From: Oryzias latipes
Taxonomy: Eukaryota; Chordata; Actinopteri; Beloniformes; Adrianichthyidae
DNA: 64,000 nt
Direction of reading: 5' to 3'
Assembly (NCBI RefSeq): GCF_002234675.1
Contig: NC_019867.2
Span: forward strand, 21,422,184-21,486,183
Positions 33,960 to 54,956 of the stretch are shown one piece after another. The position numbers and the translations under genes were made by a program. The notes below the pieces were generated by a model, which did no database searches, was not told the origin of the DNA, and worked only from the letters and a program-made list of their open reading frames with translations. How positions within the stretch are numbered: the first letter of the stretch is position 1; each line of letters begins with the position of its first letter.

Positions 33960-36900
33960 ATGGAGGGAGACGAGAGGGCCGGTGGAGTCAAAGTGAGGCC
34001 GGGGCGTTTGACTGCCCTGCAGGAGCAGCTGATCTGGGCCCTGCTGGAATCCGGACTTTCCAGAGACATCCTGGTCCAAGCTGTGGGGGAAATGGAAAAA
34101 AACAGAGCGAGTGTTGGTGCAGAGAGAGGAGAAAGAGGAGATGGAGAGAGTTCTGAGGAGGGGGAAACCGATTTCCCACCTCCTATATTCCGTGAGATAG
34201 AGAAGCTTCCTGCGGATGAAGTGTCAAAGCTGAGGACTGAAGTCGACCAGTTACTGCAGTGAGTAGATCCCATGCTTCTCTGTAAACTCCAGGGCAACAT
34301 CATCTTCACAACTATGACACTGAACTTATCTGATCTGTTAAAATCTAGGAAAAGTGACTGCATCATCATCAACGCTGCTTAATTATCTTGCTCCTACTTT
34401 GACTTTGCCCACAAAAACGCAGATCCCCCTGCATATTGAAGCACCAGTTTACCTGTCTGCATCCATATTTTCTAATTCTTCCAGGCTGAGCTCACCTTTC
34501 TTTTCAAAATCCTCCCTCCTTCCTTTACATGCTCCTCTGTCTCTCTCTGCATTCTGGCTCCTGAGGCGAATTTAAAGAGGGTTCCTCCTTTGCTAGTTAC
34601 TAATTACCCACTCCCATCATTATTCCTTTGCCATTTCTTAATATATACGCTACAAGCATACAGGTAGGTGAAGATTAATGGAGTTGGGCTGGTCTCGAGG
34701 ACTTGAAATCCTTCAACAATTTTTTAGCACCCAGTTTTGAAAATAAGTTAAGAAAATCCAAAAAGTTTTTACAAGTTTTAACAAGTTCATATGAAATGTT
34801 TATATGGGAAATAGAACACATTCATAAACATGTCAGATATCACATTAGTTATTTTAACTTTTATATCTATCACTAAAATTTTATAAAGTTGAAAATATTC
34901 AAATTATCATGCATTTTTCCTGATCAAAATTGTGAGTTGAACTGTCAAATGAGTCCTCATAAACCTTTCACACATTTTTCCCCTCCACTGGTCTGAAAGA
35001 GCTGGACTTTGCTCCAGTGTGCTCTCCCTTATCTCTCTCTGTCAATACTCTGGAACTTCCCCCTGAATGTTCACACTCTGAGCTTCATGTTGTTACAACC
35101 TGCAAAACTGCAGAACTAGCACAGGGGTTTAAAAAAAGAAAAATGCTCATCTTATTCTACTAAAAGTACAAAACTGATAGAATGGCAGACAGGGTCTATT
35201 TTTAATGTATATGGAGTCGTGTAACACATTATATAATGAAGCATTCAAACAAGGATACTCAACTAAAACTTCAATGATTTTGATGGTTTTGTTTTCCAGT
35301 CCATCATCAAATAATACATTTTAAAATGTGTCTCTTTACTGGGGACACCGTGAATGTACTGAAATTAATATAGACCTGAAGTCCCATCAATTCTTTCACA
35401 CCTGGATGTGTGAAATGTACCCCCCCCCCCCCCCCCCCCCCATAACACTGGATGTCAACCAGGGAAACACTGGGACCGATTTGTAGTTAAGTGTTCAGTA
35501 TTTGAGTCTTTACCATGAAATGACCCTTCAAATCTCAAGACGGACACTCTACCACTATGTCACTGTGGAGAATGTGTTTAGATTAAAATTTAAATTACAA
35601 TACAGCAATTCCATTAACAATACAAGACAAATCATGTTCAAATAGAACTTAAATGATTTTATTGGCAAAATCAAACTAAAATATGTTTTTTTTAAGTCCT
35701 TTTAAATAATTTAACATAATTTATTAAGTCATTGGTGCATCACATGTTTTTGTTGCAGTTGCTTGAAAAAGCATCTGTAACAGATTGGCCACAAGATGTA
35801 AATGGAAGATTTTTCATTTTTGAAACACAGATATGCTTTAAATCAAATTGTTGTAATAAATTTTTTGTTAAAATTAAATGGGAGAATTTTAGAATAAACA
35901 ATGATATTTAATGATGAGTAAAATAAATGCATCATGTAGTTATTCACAAAATGAGATGACACCTAGATCTCAAGAAAACATTGAAGTTTTTTTTAATTTT
36001 ATGTTGTATTGGAAAGTTGATGAGAGACATTCTTTCTTTTGCAAATAAGCAAACAAATTATCTTTGACTGAAATTTGGTGGGAACAAAAGAAGCATACTG
36101 GATCCTGGCCGAAATTGTGAAACTCATCATTCATCACAAAGGTGGCTGAGTCTAATGCATGCAAAAACGGCCCTTCTGTGTAACAGGGAGGAGCCCTGGC
36201 ACGTTGCAAAAATGGTGAAAAGCTACATGCAGCAGCACAACTTACCTCAGAGAGAAGTGGTGGAGTCGACAGGGCTCAACCAGTCCCACTTGTCCCAGCA
36301 TCTCAACAAAGGCACACCTATGAAGAACCAAAAGAGAGCTGCTCTGTACAGCTGGTATGTCAAGAAGCAGTACGAGATCAGCCAGCGTGAGTACACAACT
36401 CTCCCAGTCCGATCATTCTCCGAGACTGAGACATATGTCTTACAGAAAATGTTATCTAATTGCAGAGTTTACCAATGCCAAACATGGCCTTACAATGGTA
36501 GAGGAGCAGGGAGACGAGAGCAAGAAGGGACGGAGGAACCGGTTCAAGTGGGGTCCTGCATCTCTGCAGATCCTGTTTCAGGCTTACGAGCGACAGAAGA
36601 ACCCCAGCAAAGAGGAAAGAGAGGGGCTGGTAGAGGAGTGCAACAGGTGAGGGAGGATGCTTTCATTTTCAACTTTTCATCATCAATATATCATCTGTTA
36701 CAGATGATAAATTGTCTTGTATTTGCAGAGTTGAGCTGCAATCAAATCTTTTGGATGGCCTTTGTTTTTTTTAGGGCAGAGTGTCTCCAAAGGGGCGTGT
36801 CTCCCTCTCAGCTTGCTGGCCTGGGCTCAAACCTGGTTACCGAAGTCCGAGTCTACAATTGGTTTGCCAACCGCCGTAAAGAAGACGCTTTCAAACACAG

Positions 36901-39900
36901 GCTGTCCCTCGACACACCTTACGCCAACCAATCAGCTTCCTCTAACACCGCCCTTTCTGCAAGTCCCGAGCATGGTAACTCCTCCGTTTCCAGATCTACA
37001 GAAATACATCCTAGCTATAAAAGCTGTAAATCATGTTAACTTTTATTTCTCAGGTGTGAAGTTCACCCAACAGATGTCAGGTGACACAGTGAGTTCAGCT
37101 AGAGGCAATGGAGGGGAGAGGGCAGGGCGCCTCATGGTCAGTCCCATCCAGCTGGAGCCCAGCCACACACTCCTTGAGAGCCATAACCCCAAGCTGGTGA
37201 GAATCTGCCTGGTGATTCTTCACCACTTTAGACAAAATGTTCTGCTGCCATGACAACCGGGCTTACCTGTGACTGCAGGTGTCCAGTAGTGGCCCGCTGC
37301 CTCCAGTAAGCACCCTGACCTCTCTGCACAGCCTCTCTGCCTCTCCTGCTTCCTCCCAGAGCCTCATCATGGCTTCTGTGCCTGGCGTCATGAGCCTGGG
37401 GGAGTCCTCTCTTCTCATTGGTAATGCGGACTCTAGGAAAACTCAATTTCCTTTCTGCTGACCACAATTATGATTTTTTCTGGAATTTTTCAGGTTTGGC
37501 CTCCACACAGCCTCAAACTGTGCCCGTTATCAACAACATGGGGGGTGGGTTCACGACCTTGCAACCAATCTCCTTCCAGCAGCAGCTTCATGCATCTCAC
37601 CAACAGCCCATATCACAGCAGCTCCAGGGTCACATGGCTGCCAGTCCATTGATGGCTACCATGGCTCAGCTGCCATACCACAGTAAGGTTGAGCCCCCAC
37701 CTCCAAGCTAGCTGAGACACTGATGTATAGACTCATTCATCTGCTTCTCCTCACAGTGTACAAGTCAGACTCACCCCCATATCACTCATCCAGTTTGCTG
37801 TCACAGGCCATGGTCATTGCTGACAGCAGCGGTCTAGGGACTCTGACGAGCCTCGCCGCAGTCAGACAGGTACCTGGACAGGTTTCTTGTTCGGTTTACA
37901 ACCTAGTCAATTCTACTTTTTAACCCTGACTTGAAATTTTCCCCCTGGAAGATTCTCACGACTGACCCAGAAGAACAGACAGACCCGCCTCTACAGGAAG
38001 ACTCTATGCATCTGCAGCCGCACACACCTGTGCCAGGTAGAGTGAACAATGAAGAAAAGTGACAATACTTGAAAAACTATTATTATTTATTAGTTAAAAA
38101 ACATTTACAAAAGTAAAAAATTAAAAATGTTATTTTAATAATTCAATTTAGATGGGACACTGTGGAATTTAATGAAAAGTCTCACTTTCTTTTAACCAAG
38201 AATATTTATTTTGGCTTTTTTGCCAGCGAAAAAGATCAAAAAGTGGGTTAAAATACACTGAAGTAAAATCAACATGCATACACACTTTTATACAAACTTT
38301 ACAAATATTTGTAGGAAAAGAGGCAATAACAAAACACTCATATAGTGCTTTTGTACCTTGCTTTAAGGTCAAACGCACTTCACCCATGCACACACAAATT
38401 CACACACTGATGGTGTCTTACAATGGTGCCAAGCTCAACCATCCTAAACCTCATGGAGCAATGCGGGTTCAGTGTCTTGCCCAAGAACACTTAAACACAC
38501 GTGACCACCAGTCAGAGGTCCACTGTTCTTTCCCTGCACCACAGCCGTCCTTTAACCCTTATATGGTGTTCGGGTCTGTGGGACCCGTTTTCATTTTTTA
38601 TTAAAAGAAAAATGAAAGAAATAATTACTTTTTCAAACTCAGACTCACTGGCCTTGGCTCATTTTCTGTGAAGAACAGATATCAGAATACATTTTTAATG
38701 ACCACACACCGTACACCCCCCCAACACATTTCTATTACATTTAAGATGTTCGGGTCCACTGGACCCGGGGCTAATAGAAGTGTGGAAATTGATGTTTTGT
38801 GTACATATACTCTGTCCTCCACCTGTCTGGGCCTGCTGTGTGTGTGTGTGTGAGTCTGTGACCAGTGAGAAAGAGAGAGAGAGACTGGCAGAGAGAGAAA
38901 GATTGACTGTAAATGTCAATTCTGTGTTTCTGGACCTGCGGTTCCGCACAAGGTTATAACATTGTTGCAAAATTCAAGCATCAACTCTATTTCCTCTCGT
39001 TCTCCCGCACATTTGACCATTTGACTTTCTTGCGGGAATCTTTAATTTCTCACTCTTTATCTGCTACAAATTGGAGGCGGGACACTATAAATATAGTTTG
39101 GCCAGTGTGGTTTCTTATCAGAACTGATCAAAATGGCCAAAAGACAGTCTGCGCAGAGGGCCCTGGAATTGATTTTAGAAGAGAGAACAGTTTTTGATGA
39201 TGATGTAGAGGGAGAGGATTCAGAAGAGAAAGTTTCAGAATTAGAGGATCACATTTCTGAAAATTCAGAACAGTGTAAAACCCTGGGCCAAATGTCACCA
39301 TTGATGAACAGCTGATGCCATTTAGGGGCCGCTGCCCCTTTCGGCAGTATATACCATCTAAACCTGCAAAGTATGGTATAAAGATCTGGGCTGCCTGTGA
39401 TGCCACTTCCTCATATGCTTGGGATTTACAAGTCTACACAGGGAAACCTGATGGAGGAGCCCCTGAGAAAAACCAAGGAATGAGATTTGTCCTGGACATG
39501 TCTCAGGGCATCAGTGGACAAAATATCACATGCAACAACTATTTTACCTCGTACAAGCTGGGAAAGGAGTTCCTAAAGAGGAAGCTGACCATGGTGGGAA
39601 CAATACGGAAAAACAAGTCATTAGTTTTGAAAACTCTTGCTTCAATTGAAAATGTGTTTCCTCTCATATCTTGATTTTAATTGATTTTCTTTATCACGTT
39701 TTAAATAATGAGTTATGAATGTGATCTAACAAAGGTAAAGGGCAAATATTGACCAAATATACTGCTTGTAATTGGATGAGGTAAAGATCTGTCGAGTATT
39801 TTAACATCAAAGTGTTTGATTGTGAGGCATTTAAAACCACAACATGCAACGGGTCCACCAGACCCACGAACACTGGCTGAGTAACAACAATATGAACACC

Positions 39901-42312: not shown

Positions 42313-43545
42313 TTAGTCTTTCCTTTTCTTCTTTTTCTTGGGATTCTCTTCTCGTTTAGCTGCATTTTTCTTTATTTTTTCCAGGCCTACAGGCTCTGTT
42401 AAGGAAGACAGGAGAGCGGATGCGGGTACAAGATCCTCCACAGACACAGCTGTCTCCCTCAACCTCATTTCCATCTCACTGTCGCTGTCACTGCTCAGGG
42501 GAAATTTTTAAGTAGAAGGATCAGAATAGAACTATACAAAGTAACTCAACATTGTAATCAAAGTAATCAAGAAGACCTTGAACTTGGGATGGGTCGCCGC
42601 CTCACAGTAGATGGAAGCTCGGTAACTTTCTGTCCTGGGATAGATGTTGAAAATAGACGAAACCCTAAAGAACATAAAAAGTCATCCTTAAAACTATAAA
42701 AGGTTAAACAAAAAGCAAAGTTTGAAGGAAGCAACAAAACTTTACCTCCGTCATCATCACCATCTTCGCAGTTTGTTAATGTCAGATAGTTTGAAGTTTT
42801 AGACCGCGTCTCTGAAAGGCAACTGAAAAAAACCACAATAGTACTGGGGTTTACAATTTTTGATAAAGCATTTTAAAAAATCCCACATCACTGTACCTGT
42901 CGAGATAATGTCCCAGTTTTTTAGCCACGTGTTTTTGAAACCCTTGGGTGACTTGGAGCTCATTTTTGGCATCATGATCATGCCCCGCGACAACAACACT
43001 GTTTTCAACAAAAAGTAAAAAAGAAATCAAACTCAAATTTTAAAAAGGCTAAGTCATCCTTAACGCACGCACGGGCACACACATTCGTTGAAATGAAAAA
43101 ATAATTTTCTTCAACCGGTACTTACCGCTTTGACTCTTTCTCATTGCTGTCCGCATCTTAAATATGCAGAAGTGCTCAATGATCAGAAACAATAAAAGTT
43201 AAATGACAAACTTGCATTTTTGTAAAACAAGTTTAGCTAAATGAATTTAAGCCTCAAAAATCCTACTACAAACCAACATTATGGTAATTTCATATCTGAA
43301 TTACGTCTTTTCCCAACATGTTTAACCTATTCACGTGAATGAATGTGCAGCAAAACATACGGAGAATTCACGGAGCTACACATTTTTGCAGGCTACACGG
43401 ACCTGCATGAATGGTTCATCTTTTTATTGACACAAAAATGAGAAAATAAATATTCACCCTTCGCTTTGTGAATATGCGTGTCCCAGACTGCTTCCCTACA
43501 TTTTTTCAGCTCTTCGTCGTCGCTACTGCTACTATCTGCCGCCAT
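42313..43545 (-). CDS. custos: Custos (C12orf43 homologue)
   Basis: Custos is a small nuclear protein reported in Xenopus to bind beta-catenin and modulate Wnt signalling; its mammalian neighbour is HNF1A, as here. Exons in reading order: 43545-43458, 43156-43126, 42998-42897, 42822-42746, 42664-42577, 42490-42313. The phases fit and give 187 aa then TAA. The N-terminus is acidic and Ser-rich (MAADSSSSDDEELKKCREAV). The conserved core reads FQKHVAKKLGHYLD and FRLFSTSIPGQ. A second SDSDSE...RLRETAVS repeat follows, and the tail is lysine-rich (NPKKKKKRKD), a likely nuclear signal. The duplicated acidic/REAV pattern matches the human protein. The exon 5 donor (AAG then GTCTTC) is weak. The gene lies tail to tail with hnf1a, and its upstream region is occupied by a transposon starting 24 bp before the ATG. 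Confidence 0.9.
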
Positions 43546-43549
43546 GTTG
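43538..43549 (-). promoter_or_regulatory. custos: TISU / YY1-type initiator overlapping the custos start codon
   Basis: On the minus strand the bases are CAACATGGCGGC, a 12/12 match to the TISU consensus SAASATGGCGGC, with ATG being the custos start. TISU genes have very short 5' UTRs and YY1-dependent core promoters. This supports the chosen start and predicts a transcription start within about 5-30 bp upstream. Confidence 0.7.
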
Positions 43550-43569
43550 AATCAGTTGCTTGTTCTGGT

Positions 43570-43735
43570 CAATGAGTTATATCACTAGAGGAGACATCAC
43601 GTGGTTCCTCATGGGAGGAGAGCACCGCTATCTTGGTGAGGTCAAGTTACTGCTGCAGTGAATGCATTTGAACACATTTCTGACTCAGTGACTGAACTTT
43701 TCTTGCAGGTATCCAAGAGGTATGATGTATGTATG

Positions 43736-43817
<82 letters not shown>

Positions 43818-43833
43818 TATTATATTTTATGTG

Positions 43834-43909
<76 letters not shown>

Positions 43910-43925
43910 CACATAAAATATAATA

Positions 43926-43971
<46 letters not shown>

Positions 43972-44033
43972 AAATATAATATATATATATATACACATAA
44001 AATATAATATATATATACACATAAAATATAATA

Positions 44034-44087
<54 letters not shown>

Positions 44088-44089
44088 AA

Positions 44090-44171
<82 letters not shown>

Positions 44172-44376
44172 AAATATAATATATTTATATATATATGTAT
44201 AAATACATTTAAATCTAAAAATATATACAGTTTATAAAAGCTACTTAGACACCACTAAAATCAATAGAAATCAATGTCATGTGGGCGTCGTCGACCTCAC
44301 CAAGATGGCGTCGCGCTCCGCCACCGTCGGCCAGGCTTCTAAAGTGGGCGTGTCTCCTCTAGTGATATAACTCATT
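43570..44376. mobile_element. MITE-like inverted-repeat element upstream of custos (last base displaced to 47477)
   Basis: The 27-bp ends (CAATGAGTTATATCACTAGA at 43570 and its complement at 44351-44376 plus G at 47477) match perfectly. A 14-bp inner block (ATCTTGGTGAGGTC at 43630-43643, inverted at 44293-44306) also matches. The octamer GTTCTGGT flanks the element at 43562-43569 and 47478-47485, once the Harbinger insertion is discounted. The loop is a (TA)n-rich array. An 8-bp duplication fits hAT-like or Mutator-like elements. Confidence 0.8.
43737..44200. repeat. (TA)n array with interspersed 20-bp units
   Basis: TA runs are broken by repeated ACACATAAAATATAATATA units (six to seven copies, at least one inverted as TATATTTTATGTGTATG). 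It forms the loop of the upstream MITE. Confidence 0.85.
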
Positions 44377-45105
44377 GGCTGTGTCCGAATTACTGCCCTA
44401 ACCCCTAACTACTAAAACCCTATATAGTGCGGCACTATATAGTTCTCTATATAGTTCTCTGAATTTTCAAAGCAATTCGGACACCCGTGCTCACTAGTTT
44501 TCTCTTTCGGGTGTTTTCAAATGGCGCTTGGCACGGAAACAAAGTGGCGCATTACCGCCACCACCTGGTCTGGAGGGGAACTACTTCTATTTAATGCGGA
44601 GAATGACACCCATTTGTCAAATTAAAAATACAATAAATATGAACATTTTATGAAGACTATTTATGAATCTGCTGTGTTCTGATCATGGAAAATGTGGCTG
44701 ATTTATAAATAATAAAATTACAAACACATTGGTGGTGATTTTATGTATTTGTTGATAAATAAACCCCCATGTTATTACTCCATGGCAATATTTATTTTTG
44801 TGCCGCTGAACGATTTACGGGCTCTTGCGAGGAGGCATTTTTTTTCTGTTGTTTTCTCTTCTACCTTACTGAAAATAGCTTTATATATGAATCTGTCCGT
44901 GTTCCTGGCAATAATTCCACCGTTTTTCATGGGATCAAACCAAAAACGAGCAGATATGCAGCATCACAGGACAGCAAGGAGAAGCAGACGTCTCAGAAGA
45001 TTTCCCCTGGATGCCCCTGACCAGACATGAACAACTTGTGAGTTAAACTTAAAGTTTTTTATTAGATCAATTTAGGCATTTGTCACTAATTGTGCTCAAG
45101 GTTAC

Positions 45106-45133
45106 ACAGTCTGCTGGGTAACCAGCAGACTGT
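45106..45133. repeat. 12-bp perfect hairpin
   Basis: ACAGTCTGCTGG, a GTAA loop, then CCAGCAGACTGT. It sits exactly at the left border of the truncated MITE, so it is probably a transposition scar or fold-back repair product. Confidence 0.8.
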
Positions 45134-45254
45134 TTGGCGCGTGGCGTTTTTTCGCGTCGGTGTGCACACTCTCATTGGTGCCCTTTGTTTAGTCACGAGG
45201 CGTTAAAGGTCGGCGAAAATCGCCGGCGAAATTCGTCCCGGTGTGAACAGGCCT
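45134..45254. mobile_element. Truncated Harbinger-like MITE end nested in the larger transposon
   Basis: It matches about 100 bp near the right end of the 9274-9945 element almost exactly (GCGTGGCGTTTTTTCGCGTC). It keeps the complete end GTCCCGGTGTGAACAGGCCT that copy lost. Its left end stops at the hairpin at 45106-45133. Confidence 0.7.
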
Positions 45255-45582
45255 TTAGAGTTTAAAATTCTTTTTCAACACTGGATTATGAGTTGTATAG
45301 TCTAACTACATGAAACACTTGTGAGATCAAAGTTTAGTATTTTTTATTCAGTCAAACCATATCACTTGTTTTAAACAAAAATACTTTAATTTTTAAATAT
45401 TTATATAAAAATCCAAAAACCCAGCCAAAAAAAACCACGAGATTTTCCAGCATTTATAAATACGTCATAAACTAAAATGTAAGACATCAGAATAAAATGA
45501 AACATTCAAAAAAATCAGATTTAATTTTCTAAATGAAATAATTATTTTTCTATTTTACAGGGTCTTCCACGTCTCTACTACT

Positions 45583-46423
45583 TTGCCAACATATAGGTGT
45601 CTGTCGTGGCCCTTCACGCTGACGCTCAGTCCGACACAAGACCAGACCGGCAGACCCGCAGATCGGTTGACCCGCAGGACCATTGAGCATCTGGTGGAGC
45701 AGCTTGTGTTTCTTTTCTGGCTGGCATGTGGCACATCTTACGGTGTGGTAGCCAGGGCCTTTGACATGACACGGTCCACTGTGAGTGACATTGTCCACAG
45801 GACGGCAGACCGCATCCTCCAGCTGATGAGCAGGGTCACCCAGCATCCAGTGGGAATGAACTGCCATTAGTCACCTCTGGTTTTTAGCAGCTTCCTTGGT
45901 CTTCCACCTTCCAAAAGGTCGTAGGGAGCATTGATGGCTGCCACCGAAGAATAAAGGCCCTAAAAGAAAATGCAGCTTTTTTATTCCATTCAACTGCAGG
46001 CTGTACATGACTAATGCCAAATTTAGAGATATTTTTGTTGGGAATCAAGGATCAGTCCACAGTTCACAGGTTCTACGTCAAAGCCCAATTTATGTAAATC
46101 AAACATTACCCACCTGAAGGATCCTTTTGGGTGATGGTGGGTATCCCTGCATTGCTCATCCCATCACGCTGCTGACACCCTACAGGGAACCCGTGAGGAA
46201 TGCGGTTCAGGCCCGTTACAACCAGCACCACGCCAAGGCACGCTCTGTGGTGGAGAGAGAGCATTTGGCAAATGAGGAGGAGAGCAATATTTCTGGGGCA
46301 CTGGAAGTAAAACCAACCTCTGCAATGAAAATCATTGCCTGCAGTTCAGTTCTGCACAATCTGTGCATCAGAGAAGGGGACTGCTGGGAGCCACAGATGT
46401 TGAGCCACAGTAGGAACCAGTAG
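45583..46423 (+). pseudogene. HARBI1-like transposase, broken
   Basis: The first part reads an HTH-like region (SYGVVARAFDMTRSTVSDIV). A stop and frameshifts follow. The first catalytic Asp block VVGSIDGCHRRIKA is at 45921-45962 in another frame. Then come GDGGYP and the last catalytic block RYNQHHAKARSVVERE. The order of D, D and E blocks is that of Harbinger DDE nucleases. Several stops make it inactive. Confidence 0.8.
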
Positions 46424-46724
46424 GACGGGTAAAGTGGCGTCCGTCTGCGAGGACAAATCTCTGCTTTCCTTTCAGCTCCAACTGTGACACACATGACTCT
46501 AGAAAACCAGGATTATTGTTAAGATGTATAAAAATAAATGTTAACATAAAACGAAAATGTAAATATGTACATTTGATATTTATATGAAAATCCTCAGATT
46601 TAAATAATACATGTAAATAATTCATTTTTGTTACTGCATTTATTAAACAAATTGCAAAAACAACGACGACGTTACATTTTGTGAACAATATTTTAAAATC
46701 AGGTAAGCTTAACAGACTCTCCTG

Positions 46725-47009
46725 TCACTCTTTGTCCCTTCTTGCTCTCTCCTCCTCTCCTCTTTCAACAACAACCTTTACCCCAACATGACAACGATTA
46801 CAGTTTAATGATAAATAAATACAAATCTGATCAAGTGTCTTACTTCCATCCGGCACGAGCTTGCCTGAAAACAAACAGGCTTTCTCCATCCACAGATGGA
46901 TCAGATTTTCCTCATCCTCGTCTGTCCCTACATATATAAACACATTTTTAAAATGTGTTAATAACTTATGACTACGGTTAGAACTCACTGCTTTTTGATG
47001 TACTATCAA
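46725..47009 (-). pseudogene. Myb/MADF-like Harbinger accessory protein fragment
   Basis: DEDEENLIHLWMEKACLFSG resembles the N-terminal helix of Myb/MADF-type DNA-binding proteins encoded by Harbinger elements. A plausible first exon start (GAAGATGGCGGA, 47221-47232, minus) leads to a stop after ten codons. The gene is therefore broken or its leader is non-coding. Confidence 0.55.
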
Positions 47010-47770
47010 CAGCGTTTGTTTTTAGCCTTCAATGCTAATTCGCGCTAGCGTTAGCTTTAGCATTACCGAAATTGATGAGCTTCAAAACAATGTAGATAGT
47101 CGATTGAGGAATAAAACATATTAAACACACCATCTTACGTATTTACAAATATATTTTACAACATATACAAGATACTTTTAAATATACTTACATTTTTAAG
47201 TCCTCTTTCTAGCGCAACCGTCCGCCATCTTCGAATAATTCAAACGCAGTGTATTGTGGGTCACGCGCAATGCATTCTGGTATGAACGCAGTGCATTCTG
47301 GGCAATATTCGCCTATCGAGTGAGCATCGATCCACACTGGTTTTTCGTAGAGAATTCTGGGAAATTTCTAGTGCACGTGATTTTTGAACTGTAGATTCGG
47401 ACAGCACTACAAAATGGCGACCGCACTATATAGTGCACTATATAGGGGTTAGGGCGGTAATTCGGACACAGCCATTGGTTCTGGTGTAGTGTTTTCAGAA
47501 GAGCACTATGGGAAATGTATATTTTCAACTACAAAAAGGGGAGGAAGCGCATTTGAAAGACGATTCTTGTGTTTTACAGTAATTGTTAAAAAATAGCACC
47601 AATATAATAAAGTTAACTTATTTCCAAATCAATAGCTACTACTTTAAAGATAAGGCAGCTGGTTAGCTAGCAAGTCAAAACAATAACAATCCCGCTAATA
47701 CATCAAAAACCTACATTAAGGATATTAGAAGTAAAAATTATAACCAGACATTCTATTTTTGTCAGGCTTA

Positions 47771-49517
47771 TTTATTAACAACAGTCATGATAATACACCA
47801 ATGTGTCACTTTGAAAATAAGCCACTATAAAAACTGGACTGCACCAGATTCACATCACAGTCTTCCTATGCAGTTTATATGCTGCTCCACAGAAAAGAGG
47901 GTTTAAAAACCCAGAAACAATGACACAATGAATGGTAAAGTAGACTCCCAGCACGTTCACACTAAGTGAGCCAGGGTAAAGAGGAAAAAGACTTGCAACA
48001 ATGCAAAAAGCTCATGTGACCACATTTCTCATGAACCCGATAGCTGGTTTGCTTTTTGTGTCATTCCCATTGATCATTACGGATCTTTTTTAACTGTAGC
48101 AATAATTTAAAAAATTGCCTACTGTATAAAAATCACATAACACAAAACATTTTACTTCATACAAAACAGTATAGCATATATACTGAGATATGATTGGTGA
48201 ACTTTCCCTCTGCTCAGTGCCATTATACCTGTAAGCAAGGTTTCTTTACCATGAATTAAGGCACATACAAGTACTAAACAGTGCTAATGAATATATGTAG
48301 ATCATGTCTGAGTTAACAAGGGATTATCACTTGACATGACGCATATTCAGACATATAGAAATGCAGCCTGCCAACTAGTTCCAAAATTATCCATATTTTT
48401 CTTTTGTCTCTTCTAAAAAGGAAGAATACAGTTCAATGGTCCCAAAGCAAAGCCCCCTTCCCACCAAGTCTGAAGTTTAATACATACAAGACATTCTATC
48501 ATATTATCTTATAAAGTTTTCTGTGAGAAGAAGAACAAAATGGTATCTAGGTTTTACATCTACGATCATTTAGATAATAACTAACAAGCTGCATCTCTCC
48601 ACACCATCAGGTTGTGTGCTGCTGCAGAAACCTTTCATCTGTAACCACTAAACCCAAGACTCCAGTAGCCGACCAGAATCACACTCCTATCACATGTACA
48701 ACCGTAAACCAGGTAGACAGCCTAAAGACTCTAGCCAAAGTAAAGTGGACAAAGGCAACAACACCAGATATGTCACAGATATAGAAAGACACAATGTTCT
48801 TTCAGATCCAGGAAGCCCAGGGGTCCCTCTCAGAAAGTTAAGATTTTACTACAACCATTGAAAAGATGGAATTGGACCACAGGAAAAGGTCTTTAACCCT
48901 GAAAATGTATCATAAAAAGTGGGAACCCTGTCTAATAGTAGAAGAATGTCACTGAATACAACTTATAATGTGTACAAGGCAAAACTTTTTAGTCCTTCTA
49001 GCAAACACAGAAAAACAAAAATCTACTTTAAAAAAGACTTACCCATGCTACACCTTCATCTGCTCCTAACAATACTGAAGGGCATACACTAGAGCTTGCT
49101 TTCCTGTAAGATACAAAGAACATCTTCTGCATTTCAGTAATGTCAAACCAAGCCAGTCTAAAGGTGGAGCTTTTAGAATTCTGTGAGTCAAAGTGTTCCC
49201 TTCCAGCAGAGACAACCTTAGCCCAAAATCAAACAAATATTACCAATAATGCTGGAATGACAAACAAAAATCAAGACAAGCAGATTTCATAAAAGAAACA
49301 TTGAAGGAAACATATTTTTGAAACCTAGAACTTGAGCTCTTTATAGTGCTGTTTGACAAATCCTCGGTTACAGTTGAAGGCAGAGCTGGCCTGTCGAACA
49401 TCGAGCAGGTCTGTTAAAAATTGTTAAAAAAGATACCTCTGTGCCCTTGAAAATTAAACTGTGGATAGATATTATCCAAGAGTCTATCCCTTGGAAGAAA
49501 AAGCAACCATTCTGCCA
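47771..49517 (-). other. unc119b: Probable unc119b 3' UTR
   Basis: This 1.7-kb stretch has no convincing coding sequence and no recognisable transposon. The first good AATAAA on the minus strand is at 47771-47776. A long 3' UTR is also known for human UNC119B. The boundary is inferred. Confidence 0.4.
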
Positions 49518-52500: not shown

Positions 52501-54956
52501 CAGGCTTGGGGTTGGGGTTCACTGGTGAGTCCTGGCCTCTTCCCACGGGCCCCGAAAAAATGATGTGGGATCACTCTCCCATGGGCCCACCACTTGTAGG
52601 AGCGCTCCGAAGGGGCCAAATGTGCTTTGGGTGGCAGTCGAAGGTGGGTGCCTCGGCAGCCCAAACACTGGTCATGGCACTGGGCTTTTGGGACATGGAA
52701 CATCACCTCTCTGGGAGGGAAGGAACCTGAGCTTGTGTGGGAGGTTGAGAGGTACCAGCTAGATATAGTTAGGCTCACCTCCATGCACAGTCTTGGCTCT
52801 GAAAATCAGTCCCTCGAACGGGGTTGGACTCTACCAATCTGCAGTTGCTCATGGTGAGAGGCGGCAGGCTGGTGTGGGCTTACTCATGAGCCCTCAGCTC
52901 AGCCGCCAAGTGGTGGAGTTTACCCCGGAGGACGTGAGGGTCATGGTCCTTCTTAGGGTAGGGGGACAAGTCTCTGGCTGTGGTTTCAGCCTACAGGCGG
53001 AACACCAGTTTGGAGTTCCCGGCCTTCTTGTTGTCTCTCGATGGGGTACTGGGAAGTGCCGCTACAAGGGACTTCCTTGTCCTCCTGGGGGACTTCAATG
53101 CCCCGGTGGGCAATGACAGCGGCACCTGGAGCCGCATGATTGGTAGGAATGGCCTCCCTGATCTGAACCTGAACGGTGTTTTGTTGATGGACTGCTGTGC
53201 TCATCACAGTTTGTCTATAACAAACTATATGTTTGAACATGTGGCATCAGGACACTCTAGTCAGGAGGTCAATGATCAACTTTGCGAACTCCCACAAACC
53301 CACCAGAGTGTTGGTGGGTTCGTGGGAGTTCACTCATCCAGTCCAGGTGTTTTGTGGATTTGGAGAAGGCGTTCAACAGCGTCCCTCGTGGTGTCCTAAA
53401 GAGGGTGCTCTGGGAATCTGGGGTCCGGGGAGCCTTACTGAGGGCTTTCTGGTCTAGGAGAGAAGCTTGGTTCGTATAGCCGGCTGTAAGTTGAATCTGT
53501 TCCCGGTGCAGGGCTGCTCTTTATCACCGGTTCTGTTCATAGTCTTTATGGACAGAATATCTAGGCACAGCCATGGGGAGAAGAGGATCTGGTTTGAGGA
53601 CCACAGGATTTCCTCTACTTTCTTTGCAGATTATGTTATCCTGTTGGCTTTATCAAGCCAGGACCTCCAGCATGCATTGGGGCAGTTTGCGGCCAAGTGT
53701 GAAGCGACTGGGATGAGGGTCAGTCCCGCCAAATTTGAAGCCATGGTTCTTGACTGGAGATAGGTAGTTTGCCTTTTCTGGGTGGGTGGAATGCCCCTGC
53801 CCCTGGTGGAGGAGTTTATTTATCTTGGGGTCTTGTTCACGAATGAGGGAGAAAGGAGCATGAAATTGACAGGTGGATTGGAGCGGCGTCCGCCATTATG
53901 CGGTAGCTGTACTGGTCCATTGTGGAGAGAGAGCTTAGGCAGAAAGCAAAGCGGTCCATCTTAATGGTCGATCTTCGTTCCAATACTTTGGAATAATTTG
54001 GTCATGAGCTCTGGGTCATGACCGAAGGAACAACGTGTACAAGTGGCTGAAATTAGCTTCCTCCATAGGGTGGCTGGGTGCTTCAGAACCCCCTATATGA
54101 GAAGCTTGGTCACCCGCAGAGAGCTTGGAGTAGTCTCTGCTCCTCCACAGTTGAGAGGAGCCAGTTGAGATGGCTCGGGCATCTGGTCCGATGCCTACTG
54201 GACGCCTCCCTGGGGGGGGTTTCCGGGCATTTCTCACGAGGCGGAGGCCCCAAGGAAGACCCAGGACACGCTGGAGAGATTACATCTCTCGGCTGTCCTG
54301 GGAACGTCTCGGGTCCCTGCAGAGGTGGTGAAGGAAGTGGCCGGGGAGCTGTGGCTATTTCAATTTCAAATGAAATAAATACATTAAAAATATTGTTTTG
54401 TCGTTGAAATCGGATTTTTCTTTGTGTGTTGGATTCGTTTGACAGTCTGAAAATAAAAGTTTCATATTTTCACTAACTTCTGAAGCAGATATATCAGTTT
54501 TTGAGCTTCTTTTTAATCGGGCAACTAATATGTTGGTTTTTAAATAACAGGAAATGCTTCCTGATAATGAACTTTCAGAATTAAAGTTGTTGCTATTTAG
54601 AAAAAGGAAAAGAAAAGGTTTTGACTCATGTACTGTCTATTTTATTGATTTACCTTAATCTGTCTTTTTGGTTGGCATTGTTGTATTGAAATGTTTAAAA
54701 TAGTTTAAAGATTAACATTAACTTTATTTAGCCCTGCATTCTTTGTCTCAATTGAACAGAGCAACTACATGGATTTTATTTATAACAATAATAATAATAA
54801 TAAACATTCTCCAACACCAACAATACCTTTAGTGACAGTCCGAAGACCCAGCACATGGTCCGGGGAAATTTCTTTCCCCAGTGCCCGGAGTTCATCCTCC
54901 GTGACCACAGGCCACTTCTCCGTTTGGCTGCGCCTCGACTTCAGCTTTTTCAGCAT
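49518..54956 (-). CDS. unc119b: UNC119B lipid-binding trafficking chaperone
   Basis: UNC119 proteins are PDE6D-like beta-sandwich carriers that bind myristoylated N-termini and deliver cargo to cilia and membranes. Exons in reading order: 54956-54827, 51682-51569, 50112-50004, 49903-49731, 49630-49518. They total 639 nt and encode 212 aa, with all junctions GT-AG and in phase. Conserved blocks include [67 protein letters not shown] and [20 protein letters not shown]. The family-typical N-terminal [11 protein letters not shown] is present. The acidic loop after FEIAKPP is short, more like fish than human UNC119B. Intron 1 (3.1 kb) holds a LINE fragment on the opposite strand, and intron 2 holds a 1-kb inverted-repeat element. 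The start is uncertain: upstream reading is blocked by an in-frame TGA at 54972-54974 (see findings). Confidence 0.93.
50155..51200. mobile_element. Inverted-repeat DNA element in unc119b intron 2
   Basis: Arms of about 80 bp (50155-50236 and 51123-51200) are inverted, with shared text AGAAATGCTTTTTCATTTTC and GCTGCATTTTTTGACTCAAA. Its centre (50780-50915) matches, inverted, the interior of the 2659-3608 element (CTAAATGTGCTTTTATTACT). Confidence 0.7.
52310..54400 (+). pseudogene. RTE-like LINE fragment in unc119b intron 1, antisense to the gene
   Basis: In order: endonuclease-type residues ([40 protein letters not shown]), then a jump across a deletion to the reverse transcriptase ([51 protein letters not shown]), then a C-terminal part ([11 protein letters not shown]). 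Several frames are used. The catalytic box reads FADY instead of FADD. The 3' end is a short ATAAATACATTAAAA stretch near 54375. The clade assignment is by motif resemblance. Confidence 0.8.
54478..54592 (+). repeat. Dispersed repeat, copy 1
   Basis: It shares CTTCTGAAGC, TATGTTGGTTTTTAAATAAC and GAACTTTCAGAATTAAAGTT with 58254-58378. Part of it recurs at 52225-52290, just before the LINE. Confidence 0.65.

Follow-up and report, generated by a model that had tools for sequence, protein, structure and literature searches.

A TISU start codon and two nested transposon insertions upstream of custos in Oryzias latipes

The custos gene of Oryzias latipes is best read, with roughly even confidence, as an ordinary TISU-type gene whose promoter has been split by two recent DNA-transposon insertions. 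The native TISU/YY1 element on the start codon most likely drives the gene, and the neighbouring MITE is most likely neutral, or mildly helpful via an E-box. What is new is that the MITE comes from a large hAT-like family with GCCATCTTG in both arm consensuses, and that the YY1-like site which the initial annotation picked out in the MITE is the family site broken at its ATG. The MITE may be less harmful for the loss of this gene-facing YY1 start. The window is the whole 64-kb stretch of DNA that was analysed (C9:21422184-21486183), and genome searches covered 734,051,031 bases in 25 contigs. The features of the start region and of the insertions are as follows, in window coordinates.

43538 to 43549, minus strand: TISU/YY1-type start element of custos, CAACATGGCGGC (GCCGCCATGTTG on the plus strand), in a Pfam-supported gene
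43546 to 43569, minus strand: remaining host leader, the 24 nt upstream of the custos ATG
43562 to 43569, unstranded: left copy of the 8-bp target duplication, GTTCTGGT
43570 to 44376, unstranded: hAT-like MITE minus its last base (G at 47477), from the left tip at 43570 to the inverted tip ending at 44376
44377 to 47473, plus strand: nested PIF-Harbinger-type element with tips GGCTGTGTCCGAATTAC and a 3-bp ATT duplication
47478 to 47485, unstranded: right copy of the MITE target duplication, GTTCTGGT

custos is encoded on the minus strand, with its ATG at 43545-43543. Its six exons are present in the window in order with an intact reading frame, and the protein, assembled by hand, matches the Pfam CUSTOS family over residues 4-177 (E 8.3e-28). 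An HNF-1_N frame (E 8.4e-33) is found near custos at 36155-37036, and a retroelement's RVT_1 frame (E 4.5e-10) at 53467-53760. The initial annotation placed the custos ATG in a 12/12 TISU match, and this is borne out by CAACATGGCGGC on the minus strand, which encloses the start codon and is the sole 12/12 match within the window. Scoring was done against SAASATGGCGGC, which we take to be the TISU consensus; position 4 of this consensus is S.

The 12-mer pattern was found 1,570 times in the genome (787 + 783), against 54 times (32 + 22) for the reversed control. Origins were tallied for the first 30 of the 1,570 matches as listed, all on C1: 24 lay in an old dispersed repeat, one in a MITE-family copy (L010), and five stood alone. 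A 12/12 match was therefore rejected as proof in itself, and is weak evidence here because the sampled strings are mostly dispersed by repeats; the custos TISU counts because a Pfam-supported gene has its start codon there. Nor does it look like a member of the old repeat, the best matches listed being exact runs of 14 bases. The repeat may be a wide spreader of TISU/YY1 strings. It carries CAACATGGCGGC, centred at about 1501-1512, in copies L009, L011, L013-L019, L022-L033, L035, L036 and L038 (L020 and L021 are outside the set); its conserved stretch GTCTGGYTCCAACATGGCGGC reaches 9 bases past the searched 12-mer, and longer alignments are mostly 65-80% alike.

It had been proposed that the MITE begins 24 bp upstream of the ATG, eight of these bases being target duplication. 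The sequence agrees on both counts: the MITE edge, with left tip CAATGAGTTATATCACTAGAGGAGACA, is at 43570, and GTTCTGGT recurs exactly on the far side of the insertions. The custos copy measures 807 bp as far as the nested insertion and includes a long TA-rich microsatellite (43734-44200) with recurring CACATAAAATATAATATAT units. The Harbinger element (3,097 bp, with GGCTGTG tips) lies inside the right tip of the MITE, and is assigned to PIF-Harbinger by its 3-bp duplication, inverted tips and DDE_Tnp_4 transposase stretch (46127-46420, E 6.9e-6). On its minus strand, which is the custos strand, there is an 11/12 TISU match, GAAGATGGCGGA, at 47221-47232, followed by the donor-like sequence GTAAGT. 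The MITE, the Harbinger and their duplications together put 3,916 bp of insertion DNA above the 24-nt leader. The further proposal, that any upstream promoter sequence must be transposon DNA, holds nearby, so that the choice between TISU and transposon DNA is valid for sequence close to the custos start; beyond 47,486, however, there is putative host flank, a candidate ancestral promoter. That the old upstream sequence was the promoter is a third possibility, missed by the initial annotation.

The MITE tip pattern, with up to two mismatches, was matched 916 times genome-wide (448 + 468) and its control 0 times, which implies some 450 or more copies of the family. Target duplications of 8 bp were seen at 19 other tip pairs, 17 of them perfect and two with one mismatch (only pairs whose duplication had 0 or 1 mismatch were counted, pairs without a duplication being outside the count), which fits a hAT element. 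The custos copy has its duplication in 8/8 positions, and this, together with the 27-bp shared tips, the 916 tips and a short element without transposase, identifies a hAT MITE. It is unlikely that the MITE text is an ordinary promoter conserved in distant fish, the case that had been named as contrary evidence, because the text is that of a family of hundreds of copies.

The arms were compared in 81 distinct ends of the family, 39 left and 37 right (custos in both) and five other, drawn from the best-scoring matches and from perfect-tip matches in genome order, a choice that leans to young copies. Exactly two blocks of 8 or more bases are common to the two arm consensuses: the initial 27 bases and, subterminally, a block of 18 bp, CGCCATCTTGGTGAGGTC, which begins at 57 in the left arm and 68 in the right, behind unlike spacers. 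The 18-bp block contains the 9-mer GCCATCTTG, which when read outward is the YY1/TISU-like sequence CAAGATGGCG. The 9-mer is intact in 35 of the 39 left arms, 35 of the 37 right arms and 3 of the 5 other ends.

Some further observations concern the family at large. A 3.9-kb stretch between two family tips (L099, 1-3901) has a frame that by eye resembles a reverse-transcriptase fragment, and no hAT transposase was recognised in this one wide tip pair. Four tip-bearing ends (L052, L053, L063 and L096) have GGGGTCCTTC as their common flank and are missing some of the usual arm; they are perhaps a captured copy dispersed within a larger repeat. The mean CpG observed/expected ratio of 72 MITE flanks was 0.76, compared with 0.49 for the window and 0.64 for C1 stretches, where some flanks hold neighbouring MITE copies and the C1 background comes from loci picked by TISU. 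An insertion bias towards promoter-like DNA is not relied on: against C1, the CpG count gave p 0.14, and GC likewise did not differ significantly.

Within the arms of the custos copy, three features are relevant to the gene.

43598 to 43603, unstranded: E-box CACGTG of the left MITE arm, at -58 to -53 relative to the custos ATG
43625 to 43635, minus strand: broken family YY1/TISU-like site, CAAGATAGCGG (family form CAAGATGGCGG), with ATA at -86
44301 to 44311, plus strand: intact right-arm YY1/TISU-like site, CAAGATGGCGT, directed away from custos; in the family right arm GCCATCTTG is 69 bases from the tip

The custos copy thus has GCCATCTTG intact in its right arm only. Its left arm shows a single difference from the consensus of 27 other left arms and shares it with none of them, the 27 being those of the 38 others with up to 12 ungapped mismatches (11 were above this cut-off). 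L043 has the same right arm, base for base. From a consensus of 35 that leaves out both custos and L043, this arm has two differences, common to 2 and 11 of the others. Over the two 110-bp arms compared there is therefore one private change in 220 bp, and it turns ATG into ATA in the gene-facing site. The 31-mer with ATA occurs once in the genome, at custos; for the intact 31-mer there are 333 perfect matches, and 556 when one mismatch is allowed, the 223 single-mismatch copies being distributed over 31 positions and including the custos change.

The YY1-like CAAGATAGCGG that had been noticed on the custos strand is thus present, but as the broken form of the family's CAAGATGGCGG. Its suggested role as a promoter part supplied by the MITE is not supported: the substitution is inside the ATGGCGG block (positions 5-11), and the site is implausible as a helper because these positions are reported, in the accessible text of PMC2518114, to be necessary for TISU transcription. 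In the family form, the ATG at -86 would open a frame of 20 codons that ends at -23 and is not in frame with custos. The MITE keeps four more upstream ATGs, at -132, -122, -67 and -52, each with a stop ahead of the custos ATG.

The chance that one private change would hit the 7-bp custos-facing core is about 0.03 (7/220), which was counted post hoc and so does not establish selection. Of the 189 core sites that the 27 other left arms offer, 1 was mutated, which is near the general arm rate of 0.77 per 100 bp, and the core therefore has no visible protection. It could be supposed that the family carries an outward YY1/TISU start element in each arm as ProtoRAG-like YY1 docking sites, that its insertions seed potential short-leader starts into their flanks, and that at custos, where a copy landed beside a native TISU, the gene-facing site was removed by selection as two tandem YY1 starts interfere; we consider this quite improbable. 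Given hundreds of family copies, such a juxtaposition is not very surprising; more telling are the presence of a YY1-type motif in each arm and the loss of a single site. A different suggestion is that the insertions merely damage the promoter, custos being weakly expressed in this strain or the insertion being a segregating allele, with nothing co-opted. The custos copy looks very young, with its one private change, and among some 450 or more copies a few landings near starts are unsurprising; the intact six-exon reading frame and the Pfam match may speak against damage, and we regard this explanation as rather unlikely.

Two features describe the DNA that the insertions displaced.

47486 to 47900, unstranded: inferred ancestral upstream sequence of custos, whose sole genome match is itself
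47503 to 47523, minus strand: M4-like match (THAP11/ZNF143 type), AATATACATTTCCCATAGTGC, agreeing at 14 of 17 fixed positions

Since 47486-47900 has no genome match other than itself, it is taken as host sequence. With the flanks rejoined into the empty site, the M4-like match would lie at -62 to -42, and it is now at -3978 to -3958. The accessible text of PMC5006282 gives the M4 motif as RRACTACANNTCCCRRNRNRC, with sites peaking near -89 from start sites. A match of this quality, with its three mismatches, is expected 0.004 times in the 2 x 150 bases scanned, M4 being among three overlapping motif forms that were tried. The combined form in the empty site has an expectation of 0.008. The SBS (ZNF143) motif was set aside, its expectation of 0.37 in 2 x 150 bases being not above chance; the SBS form scores 14 on the present MITE side and 13 in the empty site. 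The M4-like match suggests that a functional element may have been displaced to about -3,970 by the insertions.

CACGTG had also been claimed for the left MITE arm. It is there, at 43598-43603 rather than in the region of 43605-43616. This permits a reading in which the MITE left arm is now the custos promoter, with the E-box at -58 replacing the displaced element at about -62: the two are almost equidistant from the ATG, and the DNA proximal to the custos start is MITE. However, the E-box is part of the family arm consensus and not specific to the custos locus, and the custos-facing YY1-like site is broken in this copy. We consider such a takeover unlikely.

Under the preferred explanation, a native TISU start, the transcription start before the insertions would have been no more than about 30 nt from the ATG, with the TISU bound by YY1 and the position at -62 perhaps by an M4-type factor. 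At present, YY1 at the start codon would still direct initiation to the MITE edge or to the 24-nt leader, largely without upstream host elements. Loss of the ATG in the custos-facing arm site would spare custos a competing upstream YY1 start, one that would have opened the 20-codon frame closing just before the custos ATG. According to the accessible text of PMC2518114, TISU is located at +5 to +30 relative to the start site, the median 5' UTR of genes that start in TISU is 12 nt long, and in PSMD8 mutation of the first four bases of TISU, or of the sequence upstream of it, had no significant effect; the transcription work cited is on human genes. A longer custos leader would contain the ATGs at -132, -122, -67 and -52, which counts against a native TISU start as the explanation. 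Transcription could instead start beyond 47.5 kb or inside the Harbinger and be spliced to a site near the ATG. The upstream flank survives beyond the insertions, and the Harbinger's GAAGATGGCGGA with its donor-like sequence is on the custos strand. However, the acceptor-like CCAG at the duplication has, by eye, no clear pyrimidine tract, and TISU genes with translation starting elsewhere and long leaders are a minority (36%) in the accessible text of PMC2518114. We think such a distant start very improbable.

In comparison with the TISU genes described in the accessible text of PMC2518114, the likeness of custos lies in a 12-mer on the start codon with ATGGCGGC intact; custos has C at position 4, while the core stated in that text is AAGATGGC. 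Whether a TISU/YY1 start works when it has essentially no upstream host sequence, and with a nearby second YY1 site present or absent, is a question for which the locus offers a natural test. The 5' UTR of human L1 has a YY1 site at its start, as given in the accessible text of PMC11602158, and the MITE family resembles L1 as a mobile element family with a YY1 site that possibly sets initiation. They differ in that L1 has a retrotransposon promoter, whereas the MITE has an outward pair of YY1-like sites, one per arm. The accessible text on medaka hAT elements (PMC4746887) does not name the family, and no transposase is linked to it here. Literature on TISU together with transposons, judged by title and the start of the abstract, yielded nothing related, and no fish hAT element with YY1 sites was seen by title or abstract start among the matches listed. 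ProtoRAG, the lancelet DNA transposon, has a 5-bp target duplication and the MITE family one of 8 bp, and the family is therefore not classed as a ProtoRAG member; it is also hAT-like and non-autonomous, and has the 9-mer 58 and 69 bases from its tips. In the accessible text of PMC7481187, GCCATCTTG is the YY1-bound TR5 element of the ProtoRAG TIRs, and YY1 acts there as a repressor of transcription and also affects cleavage and transposition; the 9-mer occurs in PMC8289069 as well. The MITE family and ProtoRAG (PMC7481187), both of them DNA transposons, thus carry the identical 9-mer in each terminal arm. If the MITE 9-mer binds YY1, its hundreds of dispersed copies would bear on how transposons use YY1 and on the spread of start sites, and the YY1-type 9-mer in both hAT MITE arms parallels ProtoRAG in a different kind of transposon.
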